Source: Sulfuricurvum sp. (GTDB lineage Bacteria > Campylobacterota > Campylobacteria > Campylobacterales > Sulfurimonadaceae). Taken from it: 40,884 nucleotides of DNA. The notes under the pieces are model-generated. The model saw only the letters and a list, made by a program, of their open reading frames with translations. It was not told the DNA's origin and searched no databases. A program made the position numbers and the translations under genes. The stretch lies in NCBI GenBank assembly GCA_024637215.1, contig JAGXFM010000079.1:1-40884 (forward strand), given 5' to 3'. Shown piece by piece: positions 29,580-38,987 of this stretch. Every line of letters begins with the position of its first letter. Positions within the stretch are counted from its first letter, which is position 1.

Positions 29580-30461
29580 TTAGTGCACTTTGTAATATTC
29601 TAACGCTATCCCTTCTCTTAATCCATCATCAATAATAATGGCTTCTTCAGTGTGGAGTACTTCGTAGATTGCGGTTACCATTAAAATACCGGCAATAATA
29701 AGATTTTCTCTCCCTACCCCTACGTAACGTGCGCGTGTTGTCTCGTCCATCCCCAATAGAGCATCATAGACGCGGTAGCAATCGGATAGCGATAGTACAT
29801 ATCCGTTGATTTTTTTTGGATCATAACTTTCATAATCCATTCCGTTCAAATATGCCGCCATTGTTGTGGGGGTTCCTGCCGTAAGGACGAGCTGGACAGG
29901 TTTGGATAGGTGGAGTGATTCTCGGATTTTTGCTTTAAAAATTTGAATTTTTTCCTTGAGCTGCGATTCGGAGAAGACGCTTTCTGAGAGGGTTACGATT
30001 CCGATATTTAAACTGATAGAGTGATAGCTATCGTTTGTGTGCTGTATGAGTTCCGTAGATCCGCCGCCGATGTCGGCGAGAAGAAACGATGCAGGTTCAA
30101 GTGCAAGTTGATTTAGACGATAACGAACGGCGCCCAGTGTAAGCTCTGCCTCTTTTTCAGAGGTAATGATTTTAAATACGATACCGGTTTCAGTTTTGAT
30201 CGTATCAATGATATCTTGGCTGTTGGAGGCGAGCCTCATGGCTGCGGTAGTGTAGGCTACGACACTTTGATGGGAAAAATCGATATGGACTTTGGCTTCA
30301 TGGATCGCATCTATTATCCGACGAAGTGCCTGATCTGAAATTTGGTTGCTCTTTTGGAGTGCTTCCGCCGTTCTTACAATCTTTTCAAAACTTTTCCCCC
30401 AATAAACTCCGTCATACTCGATACATCGGATCGTATTCGATCCCAAATCAACGGCGATCAT
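29580..30461 (-). CDS. Ppx/GppA-family exopolyphosphatase / pppGpp phosphatase
   Basis: 293 residues, the short two-lobed actin-like form. Phosphate 1 motif: AVDLGSNTIRCIEYD at the N-terminus. Phosphate 2 motif: LLADIGGGSTELIQ. Also VVAYTTAAMRLASN, and the tail motif AIIIDDGLREGIALEY. Enzymes of this family hydrolyse polyphosphate or pppGpp; sequence alone does not decide which. It lacks the C-terminal HD-like domain of full E. coli Ppx. Its ATG directly follows the stop of the WD40 protein gene. Confidence 0.88.
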   Translation of the reverse strand: MIAVDLGSNTIRCIEYDGVYWGKSFEKIVRTAEALQKSNQISDQALRRIIDAIHEAKVHIDFSHQSVVAYTTAAMRLASNSQDIIDTIKTETGIVFKIITSEKEAELTLGAVRYRLNQLALEPASFLLADIGGGSTELIQHTNDSYHSISLNIGIVTLSESVFSESQLKEKIQIFKAKIRESLHLSKPVQLVLTAGTPTTMAAYLNGMDYESYDPKKINGYVLSLSDCYRVYDALLGMDETTRARYVGVGRENLIIAGILMVTAIYEVLHTEEAIIIDDGLREGIALEYYKVH

Positions 30462-32591
30462 TTAGACTCGTTGTGTAATGTCATGCAAAATATTAGAAGG
30501 GATCCATCCTTGCAAAGAGCCTTGGTCAAGCTGTTCCAGATCAAGGGTTGGTTGATATAATAATTTAAAATAATCGCACACACTCCTGATCCCCTCATCG
30601 ATTCCGAAGATTTCTACATAATTTTGTATGCCGTTTTCAATGATCTCTTGCGGGAGTTTGAATTGGATTTTTTGTTCAAGTTGAACGCAATAGGCCTGCG
30701 AAATCACCGCTGCCATCGCCGCATATTTGTCCCGTACATCAAAATAGGGCTGAAAAATTTCAAGGGTCTCCTGCGCGCTCCCGATAGAAGCAAATCGCCG
30801 TGCATCATCAACAATCTCATTCCATTGATGTTCTAATAATTTAGCCTCTGGGACATCATACAGCAGAGGATAAGTGCTGAGATAGGAGAACGCATTTGAG
30901 AGATTTTTTGATGTTATGGCGTCGTAGAAAAGGTGTTTCACCCGTATCGTATCTTCCATTTCCTGAGCTTCTTTTGCGAAATCAGGAAAAGAAACTAAAA
31001 TTTTACACGCTTTTTTTGCCGTCGCATAATCACCGTTGTTATACGCTTTTTGAGCTTGAATAAAAAGCATATTGGCGTACTCCATGACGGAAGCGTATTC
31101 TGCAAACTCTTTTAAAAACGGGTGCATTTTGACAAGAGCAAAAAATTTCACATAATCCTGCTGTCCAAGAATCTTTTTAATATAGGCATACATTTTACGT
31201 TGTTCAAAGAGTTGTTGAATCAGTACGGTTTTCTCTGATATTCCTCGAAATGGGGCTAGTAACTGCCGTGCCTGCTCTTCGCCTCTCGACTCCAAGATAA
31301 GCTCTTGTGCCTTGAAAAATAACTTTTTCCATCTTCGTTCTAATTTAAGATAGAGCTCTGTCTCCTGAAGAGCAGAATATTGTTTGGCTAAAGAATAGGC
31401 CAGAGGAAGATGCCCTTCCATCACATAAGTTTGGAATTGTTCATATTTTTCATACGAGCTGAGTATTTGGTTAATAATGGTATTTTTTTTCGGAACATCG
31501 CTGTAGAGGGAAAACAGCTCTGTGAGTTTTTGCCGTTCACTTTTTTCAATACAATGACGAGCCTCCTCAAGAATCTCTAACCATATTTGCTCTGCTAGTG
31601 CGTAAGACTCTGAATACAGTAGCATCGGATTTGCTTCAACTGCGGCATAAAATGTATTGTATTGCTGTTCACGAAGCATCTGCGCATACGTTTCTTCATC
31701 TTCTTTAAGGGTGTAAATACGAATTTTACCCTCAATAGTGCCGACAGCCAAACGGAGCGGATTATCTAAGAGGGTCAGAGAGGTTATCTCTTCGCTCTCT
31801 TTAATATAGCGGGGAGTAATTTGTTCCATGCTCTGCATATCGTACAGTCCGATATAGCCGAGTTTAGTTCCGACAAAAACGAATTGTTTATCGGAACTGA
31901 TGCACATAGCGGTAACATCATCATTCATTTTGGGGAGGCGTTTGGAGACTTTAGAGCTATTCATATCCCAAACAATCAACCCTCCCTCACGTTCAGCGGA
32001 GAGAATATGGGCATGAGGCAAGAAGATAATGGAGACTATTTTACTCGAATGTCCGAGCAATTTTATCGACTGTTGCATGGTTGAGATATTGAGCAGTTTA
32101 ATGCTTTTGTCATAACTTCCCGTAGCAACCCATTGACCGTTATCATGAAATGAAACCGTACTGATTACGTCAGAATGTTCAGGAAGGGTAAACGCCAAAC
32201 GTGAAGTTTCTATTACCCATGCGAATGCTTTGCCGTCTTTTCCGCATGTAACGCAATAGCGCCCCTCCGGATCGAATCCGACGCTCTCAACTTCACCGTC
32301 ATGTCGCCCTACTTTATTAAGCAGCCCTTTTTTGGATAAGCTAAATAAAGAGGCTTGATTGGTTCCCGATACCGCGGAAATAGAGTGTTCCCCATCGAGG
32401 GATATATCTGTAAAACTTCCGCTATAGCGTTCATGGACAATCTTGGTTTTGAAGCCGTCAATAACGCCATAATTTCCTGCATGGATAATACGAAGGGTGT
32501 TTTGGGCATCAATAACGCCCAAGTTTCCATTTAAAAGTGTTTTTAGAAGGAGTATCGGCTGTTTAAAATCGAATAATTTTAGAACCTCCAT
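30462..32591 (-). CDS. WD40 beta-propeller / helical-repeat protein
   Basis: 709 residues, no signal peptide or membrane helix. Residues 1-300 form WD40-type blades (VESVGFDPEGRYCVTCGKDGKAFAWV, ISTVSFHDNGQWVATGSYDKSIKLL, GLIVWDM, GKIRIYTLK), at least five clear and probably seven with the weak N-terminal ones. Residues 310-640 are purely helical and hold four repeats of 84-85 residues: P322/S406/P491/P575, L324/L408/L493/L577, W337/W421/A506/W590, A344/A428/A513/A597. The remaining 70 residues are unique. The order resembles eukaryotic coat and IFT proteins in outline only. Function is unknown; it is co-transcribed with ilvA and ppx. It probably serves as a scaffold. Confidence 0.85.
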   Translation of the reverse strand: MEVLKLFDFKQPILLLKTLLNGNLGVIDAQNTLRIIHAGNYGVIDGFKTKIVHERYSGSFTDISLDGEHSISAVSGTNQASLFSLSKKGLLNKVGRHDGEVESVGFDPEGRYCVTCGKDGKAFAWVIETSRLAFTLPEHSDVISTVSFHDNGQWVATGSYDKSIKLLNISTMQQSIKLLGHSSKIVSIIFLPHAHILSAEREGGLIVWDMNSSKVSKRLPKMNDDVTAMCISSDKQFVFVGTKLGYIGLYDMQSMEQITPRYIKESEEITSLTLLDNPLRLAVGTIEGKIRIYTLKEDEETYAQMLREQQYNTFYAAVEANPMLLYSESYALAEQIWLEILEEARHCIEKSERQKLTELFSLYSDVPKKNTIINQILSSYEKYEQFQTYVMEGHLPLAYSLAKQYSALQETELYLKLERRWKKLFFKAQELILESRGEEQARQLLAPFRGISEKTVLIQQLFEQRKMYAYIKKILGQQDYVKFFALVKMHPFLKEFAEYASVMEYANMLFIQAQKAYNNGDYATAKKACKILVSFPDFAKEAQEMEDTIRVKHLFYDAITSKNLSNAFSYLSTYPLLYDVPEAKLLEHQWNEIVDDARRFASIGSAQETLEIFQPYFDVRDKYAAMAAVISQAYCVQLEQKIQFKLPQEIIENGIQNYVEIFGIDEGIRSVCDYFKLLYQPTLDLEQLDQGSLQGWIPSNILHDITQRV

Positions 32592-32601
32592 TCCTCTATC
32601 C

Positions 32602-33813
32602 TTAATGCTCTTCGCTACTGAGATAGCGGTGTTCTTTTAATAATGTACGAATTTGCTGCTGATGATCCTGCCCTTTAGTCTCCAAATGGATCATAACATT
32701 GGCATCACCGTATGCCAGTGTCGTAGAGGTACGATCATACGCAATATGAACGATATTGGCGTTAAGTCCTTGCAGCATCTCTGTGAGATGCATCAATGCA
32801 CCCGGTTTATCAACCAGTGTGACCGTCAATTTCATCTTTCGACCCGATTTGATAAGCCCTTTTTCGATAATAATCGAGAGAAGCGTAACGTCCATATTTC
32901 CGCCGCTGAGGACAGCTCCCACCTTTTTGCCCCGATAGTGGCTTAATTTGTCGTGCAGCAATGCGGCAACCCCGACAGCCCCTGCCCCCTCAACCACCAG
33001 TTTCTGACGCTCTAGCAAAAACAAAATCGCATTGGCAATCTCTTCATCATCAACACTGACGATTTCATCAACCGTCTCAAGGATATGTCCTAACGTGATG
33101 GGTGAAGTATCACGAACCGCGATACCATCAGCAATAGTACGAACCGCAGTACTGTCTATGGGTGTTTTAGCTTCATACGATTCTCGCATTGCGGGAGCCC
33201 CCACTGCGTTAACACCGATAACACGGATATGAGGTGCTAACGCTTTGATGGCGGAAGCCATTCCCGAAATCAATCCCCCTCCTCCGACTGGGATGATGAT
33301 TGCATCCAAATCTTTGATTGAATCGATCATCTCTAATGCAATGGTTCCCTGCCCTGCCATAACCGCTTCATCGGCGAATGGATGGACAAATACCATACTA
33401 TGCTTTTCTCCGTAGGCGGATGCATACGCATACGCTTCATCATAGTTACTTCCGGCCAAAATAACTTCGGCTCCATAATAACGCACTCCGTTTATCTTTG
33501 TCAGCGGCGTTGATTCTGGCATAACAATCAATGCTTGGATGCCGAAGATTTGAGCGGCCATCGCGACACCTTGTGCATGATTCCCCGCACTTGCGGCTAT
33601 AACCCCTTGCGCCCGTTCGGATTCGCTCAAGGTAGCGATTTTGTTGTAAGCACCGCGAATTTTAAAAGCTCCGGTCACTTGGAGATTCTCTTTTTTGAGA
33701 TAGACTTCAATACCGCATTGTTCGCTCAATCTCGGTGCATAAGCAAAAGGAGTTTTAACAACGGTTCCGCGTATCCGTTCATGCGCTTCGTATATCGTGT
33801 TTAATTCGATCAA
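32602..33813 (-). CDS. ilvA: Threonine ammonia-lyase (threonine dehydratase)
   Basis: 403 residues. PLP-binding K51 is in LQVTGAFKIRGAYNK, the phosphate-binding loop in PVGGGGLISGM, and GNHAQGVA in the substrate region. A single C-terminal ACT-type regulatory domain (about 330-395) begins KLTVTLVDKPGALMHLTEML. It deaminates threonine to 2-oxobutanoate, the first step towards isoleucine. One ACT domain and 400 residues match the short form found in Campylobacterota and Gram-positives rather than the 514-residue E. coli IlvA. The start is TTG at 33813 after AAAGGGAAAAA. Confidence 0.92.
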   Translation of the reverse strand: MIELNTIYEAHERIRGTVVKTPFAYAPRLSEQCGIEVYLKKENLQVTGAFKIRGAYNKIATLSESERAQGVIAASAGNHAQGVAMAAQIFGIQALIVMPESTPLTKINGVRYYGAEVILAGSNYDEAYAYASAYGEKHSMVFVHPFADEAVMAGQGTIALEMIDSIKDLDAIIIPVGGGGLISGMASAIKALAPHIRVIGVNAVGAPAMRESYEAKTPIDSTAVRTIADGIAVRDTSPITLGHILETVDEIVSVDDEEIANAILFLLERQKLVVEGAGAVGVAALLHDKLSHYRGKKVGAVLSGGNMDVTLLSIIIEKGLIKSGRKMKLTVTLVDKPGALMHLTEMLQGLNANIVHIAYDRTSTTLAYGDANVMIHLETKGQDHQQQIRTLLKEHRYLSSEEH

Positions 33814-34336: not shown

Positions 34337-34392
34337 CAAAACTAATTCTTAATATACTACACTCTCTAGGCTCTATGGAAAGGGGAAAATTG

Positions 34393-37300
34393 ATGCAAAT
34401 CAATCTGCAAAGCCACAAAGAGATACGTTTTATTTTAATCGTATTTCTCCTCATATCCACTCTTATCATAATTTCAAAGCTTTATAGTCTTTATCAAATT
34501 CATGAAATGAAGAAAATCACACACGATCTTTTTGAATACCCTTTTAAAGTCTCTAATGCCACTTTAATGGTTCAATCGGATGTCTATAGAATTCATCGTG
34601 ATATGAAAGATATTGTTTTAGCCCAATCAGATGAAGAGTTGCAAAAAGGTATGAAAGAAGTTAATAAGCATGAGCAACATGTCTATCACTATCTAACGAT
34701 CATCCAAAAAAGCCTCAAAGATGAAGAGGGAAAAAAACTCGAAGAGCAGATAAGAGTGTTGTTTCGTGAGTGGAAACCGATACGTGATGATGTCATCCGA
34801 TTGCTCAAAAATAATAAAAGAGCAGAGGCTATTGCCATCACCAAAGGTAAAGGGGCCAATCAGGTTTTAAAATTAGAGGATTCAACGCTAAAACTTCATT
34901 TTTATGCACAAAAAAAAGCTAATAATTTTAAGCACTATTCCGATGCTGTACACGTAAAGTACCATAATATTAGTCTTTTAATAGGTTCATTATTATTGTT
35001 GTTGTTGTTTCTGATTTCTTATCATACGATACGAAAAATTTCAAAACATATCTTAAAAAATGCCCATTTAACCGATGTAATTTCTGTTATACGTGGTGTC
35101 AACCAACTGATTGTCAGAGAAAAAAACAAAGAGAAATTAGTAGAGGATATTTGTAATATCTTGGTTACAAACCGTGTTTACAGTAATGCATGGATTGTCC
35201 TCTACAATGAAGATCAAAGTGTCCACCATATTACCAGTGCCGATGATTCAGAAGATTTCAGTCGATTAAAAAATAAAATCGAAAGCGGATGGATTCCCAC
35301 TTGTATTCAAAGCGTCGCCGATCAAAGTGATGGCTTTTTATCGATTGATAATACGAAGAAAAGTTGCGCAGAATGTCCGTTTGCAGGTTTATATGAGAAT
35401 AATGGGGCTTTTAGCATACAGTTACAATATGGTGAAAGAGTATACGGCAATCTCACCCTCTCCGTTGATGCCGTTTATCTCAAGAATAAAGATGAAATTT
35501 CACTCTTGCAAGAAGTTGCTGGAGATATATCCTATGCCCTTTATAATTTTGAAACGGAGGATCATCTCAAAGCGCATGAGCGGTCTCTCACTCATATGAA
35601 AGAACTTTATGAAAATATTATCGACAGTGTTGATAATATCCTTTTTGTTAAAGATTCTGATTTCATTTATACCGTATGCAATCAAGCATTTGAAAAGTTT
35701 GTCGGAAAATCCAATCAAGAAATAATCGGTAAAAGCGATTACGAAATATTTGATAAAGAGGTTGCCGATTTCTTCAGAGAACATGACATAAAGATGCTTG
35801 AAGAGAATAAAAGCAAATCAAATTTCGAGTGGGTAACCTATCCAGATGGACGTAAAGTCTATCTCTTGACGGTCAAATCACCTCTTCATGATTTATCCGG
35901 CAAACCGATAGGACTTGTCGGAAATTCGGTCGATATTACAGAAAAAATGAACGCAATACAAGAACTAAAGAAAAGTCAGGAAAATTATCAACTGTTGGCC
36001 AATAATGCACTTGACCTTATTTGGAAAATGGATATGGGGCTATCGTTCACGTATGTCAACCCGATAATCAAAAAATTGTTGGGATACGAAGAAGAAGAGG
36101 TTATCGATACCAAACTCAATAAGTATTGTTCCGCCGATCAGTTTGAAAAAATAGAATCGCTCGTATCCAAAATGCTCCATAGTGAGAGTGATGATGGTAT
36201 TTCTATAGAAGCGATTCTGCTTAAAAAAGACGGAAGCGAAATTCCCTTGGAGGTCAACGGGAAAATAATTTTCGATGAAACCCACACTCCGATCGGTTTT
36301 CAGGGAGCGGCGAGAGATTTCACTCTTCAAAGCGAGGCACGAGAAAAACTCAAAGATGCGCTAGGTAAGCTTGAAAAGAAAACCATGGAACTCCAAACGA
36401 TTCTTCAAGAGGCTCCTAATCCTATCATGCTCCATAATGAAGCCGGAGAAGTACTTATGGTAAACAAAGTCTGGCAATCTCTCAGCGGTTATACCTTTGA
36501 AGAGATCAATACCGTAGCGAAATGGGCGGAAAAAGCATGTGATAAAAACAAACCGCTTATGCGTGAGTATATGGAGACACTTTACTCTTTGGAGCACAAG
36601 ATAGATATGGGGGAAGCTTCGGTCACGACAAAAGAGGGAAATACCCTTATTTGGCAGTTCAGCTCAGCACCTCTGGGAATTATTGATGGAAAACAAACGG
36701 TTGTAACCACGGCTATGGACATCACCGAGTTAAAGAAAAAAGATAAACTGATGATGACACAGTCTCGTCATGCCGCGATGGGTGAGATGATCGGAATGAT
36801 TGCCCATCAATGGCGCCAGCCAATTGCAGGTATTGCGATGGATGCCAATAATATGATGCTTGATATCGCATTTGAAACGTTTGATGCGACTACGGCTGAA
36901 GGGTATGCCAAAGATATTTTGGATCAGACACAACATTTATCAAAAACAATCGATGATTTTAGAAACTTTTTTAAACCGGATAAATCGGTTGTATCCGTTC
37001 ACTTAGAGGATATCATGAATGAGACGCTCAACATCGTCAAAGAGAGCCTTGCAAACAATGGCATTGCCATCAAAACGTTATACGCATCCGAGGCTGTCGT
37101 TGACGCCTATCCTCGGGAATTGATGCAAGTGTTTGTCAATATTATCAATAACGCTAAAGACTCATTACTCTCAAATCATACTAAAAATGCTCTCATTGAC
37201 ATTCACATCTATGATGAAGAATCGTATGTCTGCACCAAAGTATGTGATAATGGTGGAGGAATTACTGAAACGGTTTTACCAAAATTATTTGATCCCTATT

Positions 37301-37470
37301 TCTCAACCAAAGATGAAAAAACAGGAACCGGACTGGGACTGTACATGTCTAAAATGATTATTGAAGAGCATCTTCATGGGATAATCGACGCTTCAAATAA
37401 TGAAGATGGGGGGGCATGTTTTCAGGTACGATTATTGAAAAAATGTGCTATCCCTTCTAAGGATCAATGA
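34393..37470 (+). CDS. Multi-PAS sensor histidine kinase with Cys-containing GAF-like domain
   Basis: 1025 residues from ATG 34393; positions below count from ATG 34375. Two membrane helices at 18-36 and 199-218 flank a helical periplasmic sensor (about 40-195) of four-helix-bundle type. A GAF-like domain at 235-395 has C310, C331 and C334 (SCAECPF). Three PAS domains follow (about 408-525, 535-650, 672-785), then HisKA with H811 (GMIAHQWRQPIAGIA), and the ATPase domain with N922/N926, DNGGG 958-962 and GTGLGLYMS. It lacks a receiver, which its partner gene supplies through an ATGA overlap. ATG 34393 has GGGG seven bases upstream and is preferred to 34375. Stimulus unknown. Confidence 0.85.
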   Translation: MQINLQSHKEIRFILIVFLLISTLIIISKLYSLYQIHEMKKITHDLFEYPFKVSNATLMVQSDVYRIHRDMKDIVLAQSDEELQKGMKEVNKHEQHVYHYLTIIQKSLKDEEGKKLEEQIRVLFREWKPIRDDVIRLLKNNKRAEAIAITKGKGANQVLKLEDSTLKLHFYAQKKANNFKHYSDAVHVKYHNISLLIGSLLLLLLFLISYHTIRKISKHILKNAHLTDVISVIRGVNQLIVREKNKEKLVEDICNILVTNRVYSNAWIVLYNEDQSVHHITSADDSEDFSRLKNKIESGWIPTCIQSVADQSDGFLSIDNTKKSCAECPFAGLYENNGAFSIQLQYGERVYGNLTLSVDAVYLKNKDEISLLQEVAGDISYALYNFETEDHLKAHERSLTHMKELYENIIDSVDNILFVKDSDFIYTVCNQAFEKFVGKSNQEIIGKSDYEIFDKEVADFFREHDIKMLEENKSKSNFEWVTYPDGRKVYLLTVKSPLHDLSGKPIGLVGNSVDITEKMNAIQELKKSQENYQLLANNALDLIWKMDMGLSFTYVNPIIKKLLGYEEEEVIDTKLNKYCSADQFEKIESLVSKMLHSESDDGISIEAILLKKDGSEIPLEVNGKIIFDETHTPIGFQGAARDFTLQSEAREKLKDALGKLEKKTMELQTILQEAPNPIMLHNEAGEVLMVNKVWQSLSGYTFEEINTVAKWAEKACDKNKPLMREYMETLYSLEHKIDMGEASVTTKEGNTLIWQFSSAPLGIIDGKQTVVTTAMDITELKKKDKLMMTQSRHAAMGEMIGMIAHQWRQPIAGIAMDANNMMLDIAFETFDATTAEGYAKDILDQTQHLSKTIDDFRNFFKPDKSVVSVHLEDIMNETLNIVKESLANNGIAIKTLYASEAVVDAYPRELMQVFVNIINNAKDSLLSNHTKNALIDIHIYDEESYVCTKVCDNGGGITETVLPKLFDPYFSTKDEKTGTGLGLYMSKMIIEEHLHGIIDASNNEDGGACFQVRLLKKCAIPSKDQ

Positions 37471-38987
37471 TGACCATTGATATTTTAAAGAAAAAAGTAG
37501 AAACATTAAAAGAAAAAGGGAAATATTTTTCTATTCTTTACGTTGAAGATGAAACAAGCCTGCGTGAAAAAGCAGCACTCTTCTTTCATAAAATTTTCGA
37601 CCATGTTGATACCGCTGCTGATGGTGTTGAAGGGCTTGCTATGTATCGTCAACATCAGTATGATATCGTCCTCACCGATATGATGATGCCAAAAATGGAT
37701 GGGCTGGAGTTAATACAAAATATCCGACACTATAATGAAAAGCAAGAGATTATTATCCTTTCAGCCGATGCGAGTTCACATATCATGTCACAGTGTATAC
37801 AATTAGGGGTGACCGGCTATTTGATAAAGCCGATGGACTTTACTCAAGTCATCACGGTCGTGGAACTCTCTATTGATAAATTAAATGCATTTCGAGAAAA
37901 TGAAATGTATAAAACACAACTGGAATCGATGGTCAATGAACGGACTCAAAAAGTTCTTCATTTGCAAAATCAGCAAGCGTCTAACTACGATCATGCCATT
38001 CACTCTTTGGTAAAAATGATAGAAGGGCGAGATACCTATACCGGTGGTCACAGTGAACGAGTTGCATTCTATTCACAAAAAATTGCTGAAGCTATGGGAT
38101 GTACATCCGAAGAGTGTGCATTGATTTATCAAGCCGGTATTTTACATGATATCGGGAAAATCATCACCCCTGATGCTATTTTATTAAAGCCCGGAAAATT
38201 AACAAACAGTGAATATTCTCTCATCAAAAACCACGTAACGGCTGGGTATGAAATCCTTTCAGAAGTGCCAATGTATAGCCAGTTTGTCAATATAATTTAT
38301 GCACATCATGAACATTATGACGGTAGCGGATACCCACGTTCTCTAAAAGGGGAAGAGATTCCAATACTTGCCCGTATCATGGCAGTTGCCGATGCATTTG
38401 ATGCCATGACGACAGGACGAATCTATAAATCGAAGAAAACACCCAATGAAGCGATCAACGAACTCAAACAACTGAGCGGTATTTGGTATGATCCTAAAGT
38501 GATTGAGATTGCTCTTGATATTTTGAAATCAATAATGGTGGATGAACATATTACTCAGGAGCCAAAATCTCATTTAGATGATGAACGTTTTGCCTACTTT
38601 TACAAAGATTCTTTGACCCATCTCTATAACCATCAATATCTCGATTTTATCCTCCAAAAAAACAAAGAGGATCAAAAACTTCTGTGTTTAAATCTCGTTA
38701 ATATCAAAAATTTCACCTCCTATAATCGACGCTATGGATGGAGCGAAGGGGATATACTTTTAAGCCAATTTAGTGAATTTCTAGCGTCCAAATTTTCAGA
38801 GTATCAGATTTTTCGTATTTTTGGTGATGATTTCGCGCTTTTGAGCACTACACATCAAGAGATTAATATTGATACAATAAATACTCTCCCCTTATTAAAA
38901 GAGAATAATCTTTATTGCGAACATATCCATTTAGATTTACCAAATCCCGCTATCAATTCCTATACGGATTTACAAGCACGCGCTTAA
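37467..38987 (+). CDS. Response regulator: REC, HD-GYP, degenerate GGDEF
   Basis: 506 residues. Receiver domain 21-140: acidic pair E27/D28, phospho-acceptor D71 (IVLTDMMMPKMDG), K121. A coiled linker leads to HD-GYP at about 175-360, with HD at 227-228 (ILHDIGK) and HHEHYDGSGYP at 280-290, the signature of active c-di-GMP phosphodiesterases. The C-terminal part (about 375-460) begins DSLTHLYNHQYLD, like a GGDEF domain, but its active motif reads FGDDF at 452-456, so diguanylate cyclase activity is unlikely. It is the probable target of the upstream kinase and would lower c-di-GMP when activated or relieved. The stop is three bases from the end of the convergent citrate synthase gene. Confidence 0.88.
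   Translation: MMTIDILKKKVETLKEKGKYFSILYVEDETSLREKAALFFHKIFDHVDTAADGVEGLAMYRQHQYDIVLTDMMMPKMDGLELIQNIRHYNEKQEIIILSADASSHIMSQCIQLGVTGYLIKPMDFTQVITVVELSIDKLNAFRENEMYKTQLESMVNERTQKVLHLQNQQASNYDHAIHSLVKMIEGRDTYTGGHSERVAFYSQKIAEAMGCTSEECALIYQAGILHDIGKIITPDAILLKPGKLTNSEYSLIKNHVTAGYEILSEVPMYSQFVNIIYAHHEHYDGSGYPRSLKGEEIPILARIMAVADAFDAMTTGRIYKSKKTPNEAINELKQLSGIWYDPKVIEIALDILKSIMVDEHITQEPKSHLDDERFAYFYKDSLTHLYNHQYLDFILQKNKEDQKLLCLNLVNIKNFTSYNRRYGWSEGDILLSQFSEFLASKFSEYQIFRIFGDDFALLSTTHQEINIDTINTLPLLKENNLYCEHIHLDLPNPAINSYTDLQARA

Follow-up and report, generated by a model that had tools for sequence, protein, structure and literature searches.

The membrane coat-like proteins of PVC bacteria are defined by an architecture that places stacked pairs of helices C-terminally of an N-terminal beta-propeller (Santarella-Mellwig et al. 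2010, PMC2799638). Outside eukaryotes, this domain order was reported in 2010 for PVC bacteria only, and it has served as an argument as to how the endomembrane system originated (PMC2799638). Three PVC examples described there comprise about 1,040-1,290 residues, whereby one of them localises at vesicle membranes (PMC2799638). At the level of predicted structure, the same order is present in a protein family of Campylobacterota, which resembles the PVC proteins in being bacterial and in its sequence of domains but differs in its length of about 700 residues, in its four regular 84-residue repeats and in its signalling or metabolic gene neighbours, the comparison being one of architecture alone. 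As judged from predicted structures, the propeller-then-solenoid order is thereby found in a phylum beyond PVC and stands there in a signalling, not a membrane, context; a compact and widespread family of this kind would mean that membrane coats cannot be read from the order alone. No earlier description of the family was retrieved from the (incomplete) library searched, and the main text of a survey of prokaryotic WD40 proteins (PMC5587647) makes no mention of Campylobacter, Helicobacter, TPR or response regulators.

The gene and the predicted architecture of its product

The window, i.e., the whole stretch of 40,884 nucleotides analysed, stems from a Sulfuricurvum contig and encodes the propeller-solenoid protein on its minus strand (30462-32591, ATG to TAA, 709 residues), the plus strand of the same interval containing many stops. 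According to the list of open reading frames, the gene lies within a run of three on the same strand, flanked directly upstream by what we take to be ilvA, encoding threonine deaminase (32602-33813), and directly downstream by what is presumably ppx, encoding a Ppx/GppA-type phosphatase (29580-30461). The ilvA stop is separated by 10 bp from the start of the propeller-solenoid gene, the stop of which abuts the ppx ATG with a gap of 0. In two Sulfuricurvum records a tandem duplicate of the orthologous gene is found between ilvA and ppx (L001:5837-10130 and L002:3061-7360). On the opposite strand, positions 34375-38987 of the window encode a putative large sensor kinase and a putative response regulator containing both an HD-GYP-like and a GGDEF-like part, as read from the sequence.

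The first 296 residues (31704-32591, minus strand) form a WD40 beta-propeller, as the preliminary description had assumed: the Pfam model PF00400 scored 75.1 bits (E 3.6e-21; cut-off 27), and the strands of the AlphaFold2 model are arranged in seven blades, whereby the N-terminal strand 3-8 is taken, from the list of predicted strands, to close the last blade. When compared with solved structures by VIA-align, this part matched the propellers of G-beta, PkwA and LIS1 with Z values of about 33. PkwA from Thermomonospora curvata is a protein in which a propeller is joined to a Ser/Thr kinase. Its seven-bladed WD40 propeller is among the structurally closest (Z 32.8, 20% identity), but the propeller described here is joined to a solenoid instead. 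A recognised catalytic domain was found neither in Pfam nor in NCBIfam, and neither a signal peptide nor a membrane helix is apparent upon reading the sequence.

Structure prediction with AlphaFold2 was based on six aligned sequences, namely that of the window protein and those of five relatives taken from three genome records of Sulfuricurvum, and yielded a mean pLDDT of 75 for the whole protein and of 86.7 for the helical part when folded alone. With a pTM of 0.48, neither the overall curvature nor the position of the propeller relative to the solenoid is reliable. The residues following the propeller are predicted to be all-helical up to about residue 688, so that the architecture shown by the model is that of a seven-bladed propeller with a subsequent open helical solenoid, which bears out the preliminary description in this respect.

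Within residues 310-640, which correspond exactly to window positions 31664-30672, a repeat with a period of 84 or 85 residues had been proposed on the basis of individual positions, all of which were confirmed: Pro, Ser, Pro and Pro at 322, 406, 491 and 575, Leu at 324, 408, 493 and 577, Trp, Trp, Ala and Trp at 337, 421, 506 and 590, and Ala at 344, 428, 513 and 597, followed by Arg, Gln, Gln and Arg, respectively. The period itself was found to lie far above chance. In a profile built from 63 family members the strongest self-offsets of the helical region were 169, 84, 253 and 85, and the best off-diagonal gapped self-alignment scored 204 as compared to 66 +/- 8 in block-shuffled controls. 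Separate profiles of the four repeats, compared all against all with hhalign, matched with probabilities of 96.6-99.5% (E 6e-10 to 2e-22), the reversed controls reaching 15% at most. In the window protein alone, six positions are identical in at least three of the four repeats, with 1.5 being expected (p = 0.003). On these sequence comparisons, the four repeats of 84 or 85 residues each are shown to be homologous.

The repeats were delimited by self-alignment, by their common pattern and by the profile-profile comparison, and they comprise, on the minus strand, residues 310-393 (31413-31664), 394-478 (31158-31412), 479-562 (30906-31157) and 563-647 (30651-30905), whereby the first, second and fourth are additionally delineated by predicted helices and the third, which is the most TPR-like, by local structural matches to TPR pairs. 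Across all repeats and members their pattern reads roughly nY..ay.l.e.yPfLke...Y..le..w.k...ka..ll.kg....akell.pf..ip.k...i..ll. Each unit is predicted to start with a helix of 10 residues, to turn at the conserved proline and to continue with a helix of 5 residues, followed by helices of about 21, 11 and 25 residues. Next to the main period, self-alignment of the family profile revealed a weaker sub-period of 42, which is explained by each 84-residue repeat consisting of two predicted helical hairpins of about 42 residues. The protein ends with a partial fifth unit and a C-terminal cap (residues 648-709; 30465-30650, minus strand), of which the former extends to about residue 678 with predicted helices at 648-662 and 666-678, and the conserved motif Y658..G663.D665 within this C-terminal part falls into near-invariant columns of the family alignment.

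Distribution of the family

The picture of a lone oddity tied to ilvA and ppx, the co-occurrence with which was to be followed according to the preliminary description, is not supported. Profile searches with the helical part, carried out on a sample of Campylobacterota, identified relatives in 90 of 298 genomes and in 23 of the 58 genera sampled, and the family is hence a large one, most branches of which are unlinked to those two genes. Within the genus of the window 35 of 41 genomes possess relatives, with up to six matches each. The relatives mostly comprise about 700-730 residues, and also distant members retain the N-terminal propeller. No relative of the helical part was found by tblastn among plasmids and phages. 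A tree, derived by a quick method and containing several long branches, divides the family into the group that includes the window protein and another large one, referred to below as the second group. On another contig of the window genome, two further family members, both very divergent, are encoded next to each other (L054:5186-9510), with genes for response regulators in the vicinity on the opposite strand.

Linkage of the family to signal-receiving genes

Neighbouring genes encoding REC, REC-PAS and PAS proteins were identified by Pfam in the second group of the family. REC genes lie immediately upstream in 8 of 90 members, which represent six lineages, the distances ranging from -25 to 72 bp, and further members of this group have a PAS protein encoded upstream or a membrane-anchored PAS protein downstream. 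In a further lineage (L128-L130) the gene for a REC protein of about 340 residues overlaps or closely follows the propeller-solenoid gene (L128:9017-10036, L129:9246-10313 and L130:8731-9753); this response regulator has a different C-terminus, and in L130 it is one of many response regulators clustered together. At L048:5505-9247, three genes in a row encode a histidine kinase-like protein, a response regulator and a propeller-solenoid protein, the last gene being broken into two open reading frames.

By-eye comparison of the REC, REC-PAS and PAS neighbours, which differ in their input parts, identified a common C-terminal domain of about 130 residues with the motifs IPxPS, N..F and DWK in this order (examples from alignment A5, among others, being L041:6094-6492, L042:9589-10011 and L084:6608-7027). 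Leave-one-out profiles recovered every one of these partner domains with E values of 5e-8 to 2e-20. No significant Pfam match was obtained for the domain, PAS_8 being weakly matched in 3 of 12 members (best E 0.0077), and judged from its sequence it may be a degenerate PAS domain.

The alignment of the partner domain was built from neighbours of the family, but the subsequent whole-genome searches, covering the phylum sample and the genus, were free to find the domain anywhere, and for this reason the linkage constitutes a test and is not circular. These searches yielded 31 different matches at E below 1e-9. A propeller-solenoid gene is adjacent to 29 of these, and the remaining two are located close to the end of a contig. 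The gene linkage is thus shown to be strict as far as gene order tells, since all 29 strong matches with a continuing contig adjoin a member of the family, one of them with another partner gene copy lying between the two. Twelve matches with E values from about 1e-8 to 1e-3, mostly within long open reading frames, were left out of this count; ten of these loci were retrieved, and none has a family gene within 1.5 kb. Weak stand-alone matches (E 5e-4 to 7e-4), obtained in two relatives as well as in the window genome, fall into short open reading frames of 108-132 residues among housekeeping genes and were dismissed as chance. Partner domain and propeller-solenoid protein were moreover shown to diverge in parallel, their sequence divergences being correlated with a Mantel r of 0.67 (p 0.0008), a value obtained with one pair per clade and uncorrected for shared species history.

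Proposed function and alternatives

Considering this linkage, we suggest, with a little more confidence than doubt, that the propeller-solenoid protein is a cytosolic docking hub, which in several branches would act downstream of a signal-receiving protein as its dedicated partner. The hub would consist of the propeller and the open helical solenoid and would be devoid of enzyme activity. A signal would alter the REC or PAS input part of the partner protein, the conserved C-terminal domain of which would then contact the propeller or the solenoid of the hub, and the hub would in turn hold or release further client proteins, whereby the clients and the direction of signalling are likewise postulated. 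A scaffold role had been a guess in the preliminary description; a hub or scaffold is still the best one, as several paralogous branches show conserved linkage to REC and PAS proteins with a private domain, while the contact itself is one that we infer.

The copy in the window probably represents the same hub, in a version that forms part of the ilvA-ppx operon. This copy and its orthologues lie in an operon without a REC or PAS neighbour, a convincing match to the partner domain was not found in the window genome (84% complete), and the domain is also absent beside many branches of the second group. Its partner might be encoded elsewhere or be an operon neighbour, IlvA and Ppx being candidates by their position.

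Somewhat more tentatively, and at slightly less than even weight, Campylobacterota may possess a hitherto undescribed two-part signalling module in which a sensor or response regulator with the private PAS-like domain acts on the coat-shaped propeller-solenoid protein as a non-enzymatic output hub. If so, a eukaryote-like architecture would have been recruited in bacteria for signalling and not for membranes. The private partner domain suggests an output route for response regulators which lack a usual output domain, and together with the hub it represents a concrete and testable pair of proteins.

Among the alternatives, the one faring best assumes an operon-specific metabolic scaffold, in which the window copy would hold or tune IlvA and Ppx (IlvB elsewhere) and signalling would be confined to paralogues. 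Gene order is consistent with this, as ilvA lies directly upstream of members of the window group throughout the genus and also in Sulfurimonas-like genomes and three further families. The gene directly downstream is ppx throughout the genus and in family f4, mostly with near-zero gaps or overlaps, and an ilvB-like gene in the Sulfurimonas-like genomes. The reactions of IlvA and Ppx are unrelated, though, polA is the neighbour of other members of the same group instead, and conserved neighbours may mean shared expression alone, all of which makes this assumption an unlikely one.

Less probable still is that the protein is a generic TPR-type adaptor of unusual spacing with no particular signalling role, its association with REC and PAS genes being opportunistic. 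Like TPR-type alpha-solenoids it would consist of stacked helical hairpins, and repeat 3 locally resembles TPR pairs, about 50 residues being superposed with an rmsd of 1.3-2 A. Among the best PDB profile matches are TPR-like proteins, either designed or with a solved structure; 4y6c, a TPR-like kinesin light-chain entry, ranks first both with the whole helical region (E 0.006) and with the single-repeat profile (E 1.8e-4). TPR_14 was matched at 2.7e-4 in 1 of 45 family members, so that TPR likeness is at most weak and seen in few relatives. Against this stands the dominant period of 84 or 85 with its sub-period of 42, as opposed to the 34 residues of TPR, in a unit that is a double hairpin with long helices below Pfam TPR detection. 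No TPR model scored above its cut-off on the protein, an outcome in favour of the preliminary description, in which the helical part had been matched to no described family, and the consensus TPR matched the repeat profile with a probability of 3.8% in hhalign. The adjoining of all 29 testable partner-domain matches to the family would furthermore be unexpected if the linkage were opportunistic. We hence call the helical part a TPR-like solenoid with a unit length of its own and not a TPR domain. That it belongs to no described family, as stated initially, agrees with the absence of any Pfam family above cut-off on this part and with the best matches obtained for it in the PDB profile search and with Foldseek.

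For structural searches the solenoid was folded and searched alone, because the VIA-align list of the full-length protein was filled with propellers. Foldseek returned nothing below E 0.14, the best match being 8bbg_C of IFT-A, and with VIA-align no chain exceeded Z 7.3, a level which is non-specific for helical repeats according to the aligner's own notes. The likeness to eukaryotic coat, clathrin and intraflagellar transport proteins drawn in the preliminary description holds for the order of domains and for IFT-A chains as weak structural neighbours, at values (E above 0.1, TM-scores of 0.2 or less) that do not show a relationship; the protein also differs from them by its single propeller, by the lack of a membrane context and of any significant match of its solenoid in sequence or fold. 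That the protein polymerises on or near a membrane as a coat-like, membrane-shaping scaffold, as PVC or eukaryotic coats do, therefore appears very improbable despite the shared order of propeller and stacked helix pairs (PMC2799638) and the IFT-A neighbours, as the searches revealed no coat protein related to it in sequence, the structural matches lack significance and the conserved neighbours are signalling or metabolic, not membrane-trafficking, genes.

A role in anti-phage defence was considered and rejected, since PADLOC yielded only a short match of the propeller (E 2.3e-6), which covers about 107 of the 1972 positions in the HEAT-ARM_XIII profile. In family f14 (L073, L078, L080 and L083) the propeller-solenoid gene directly precedes what is presumably a dprA-like gene, with a presumed minD-like gene two or three genes upstream, and in L073 the dprA-like gene is followed by what we take to be a ruvX-like gene.
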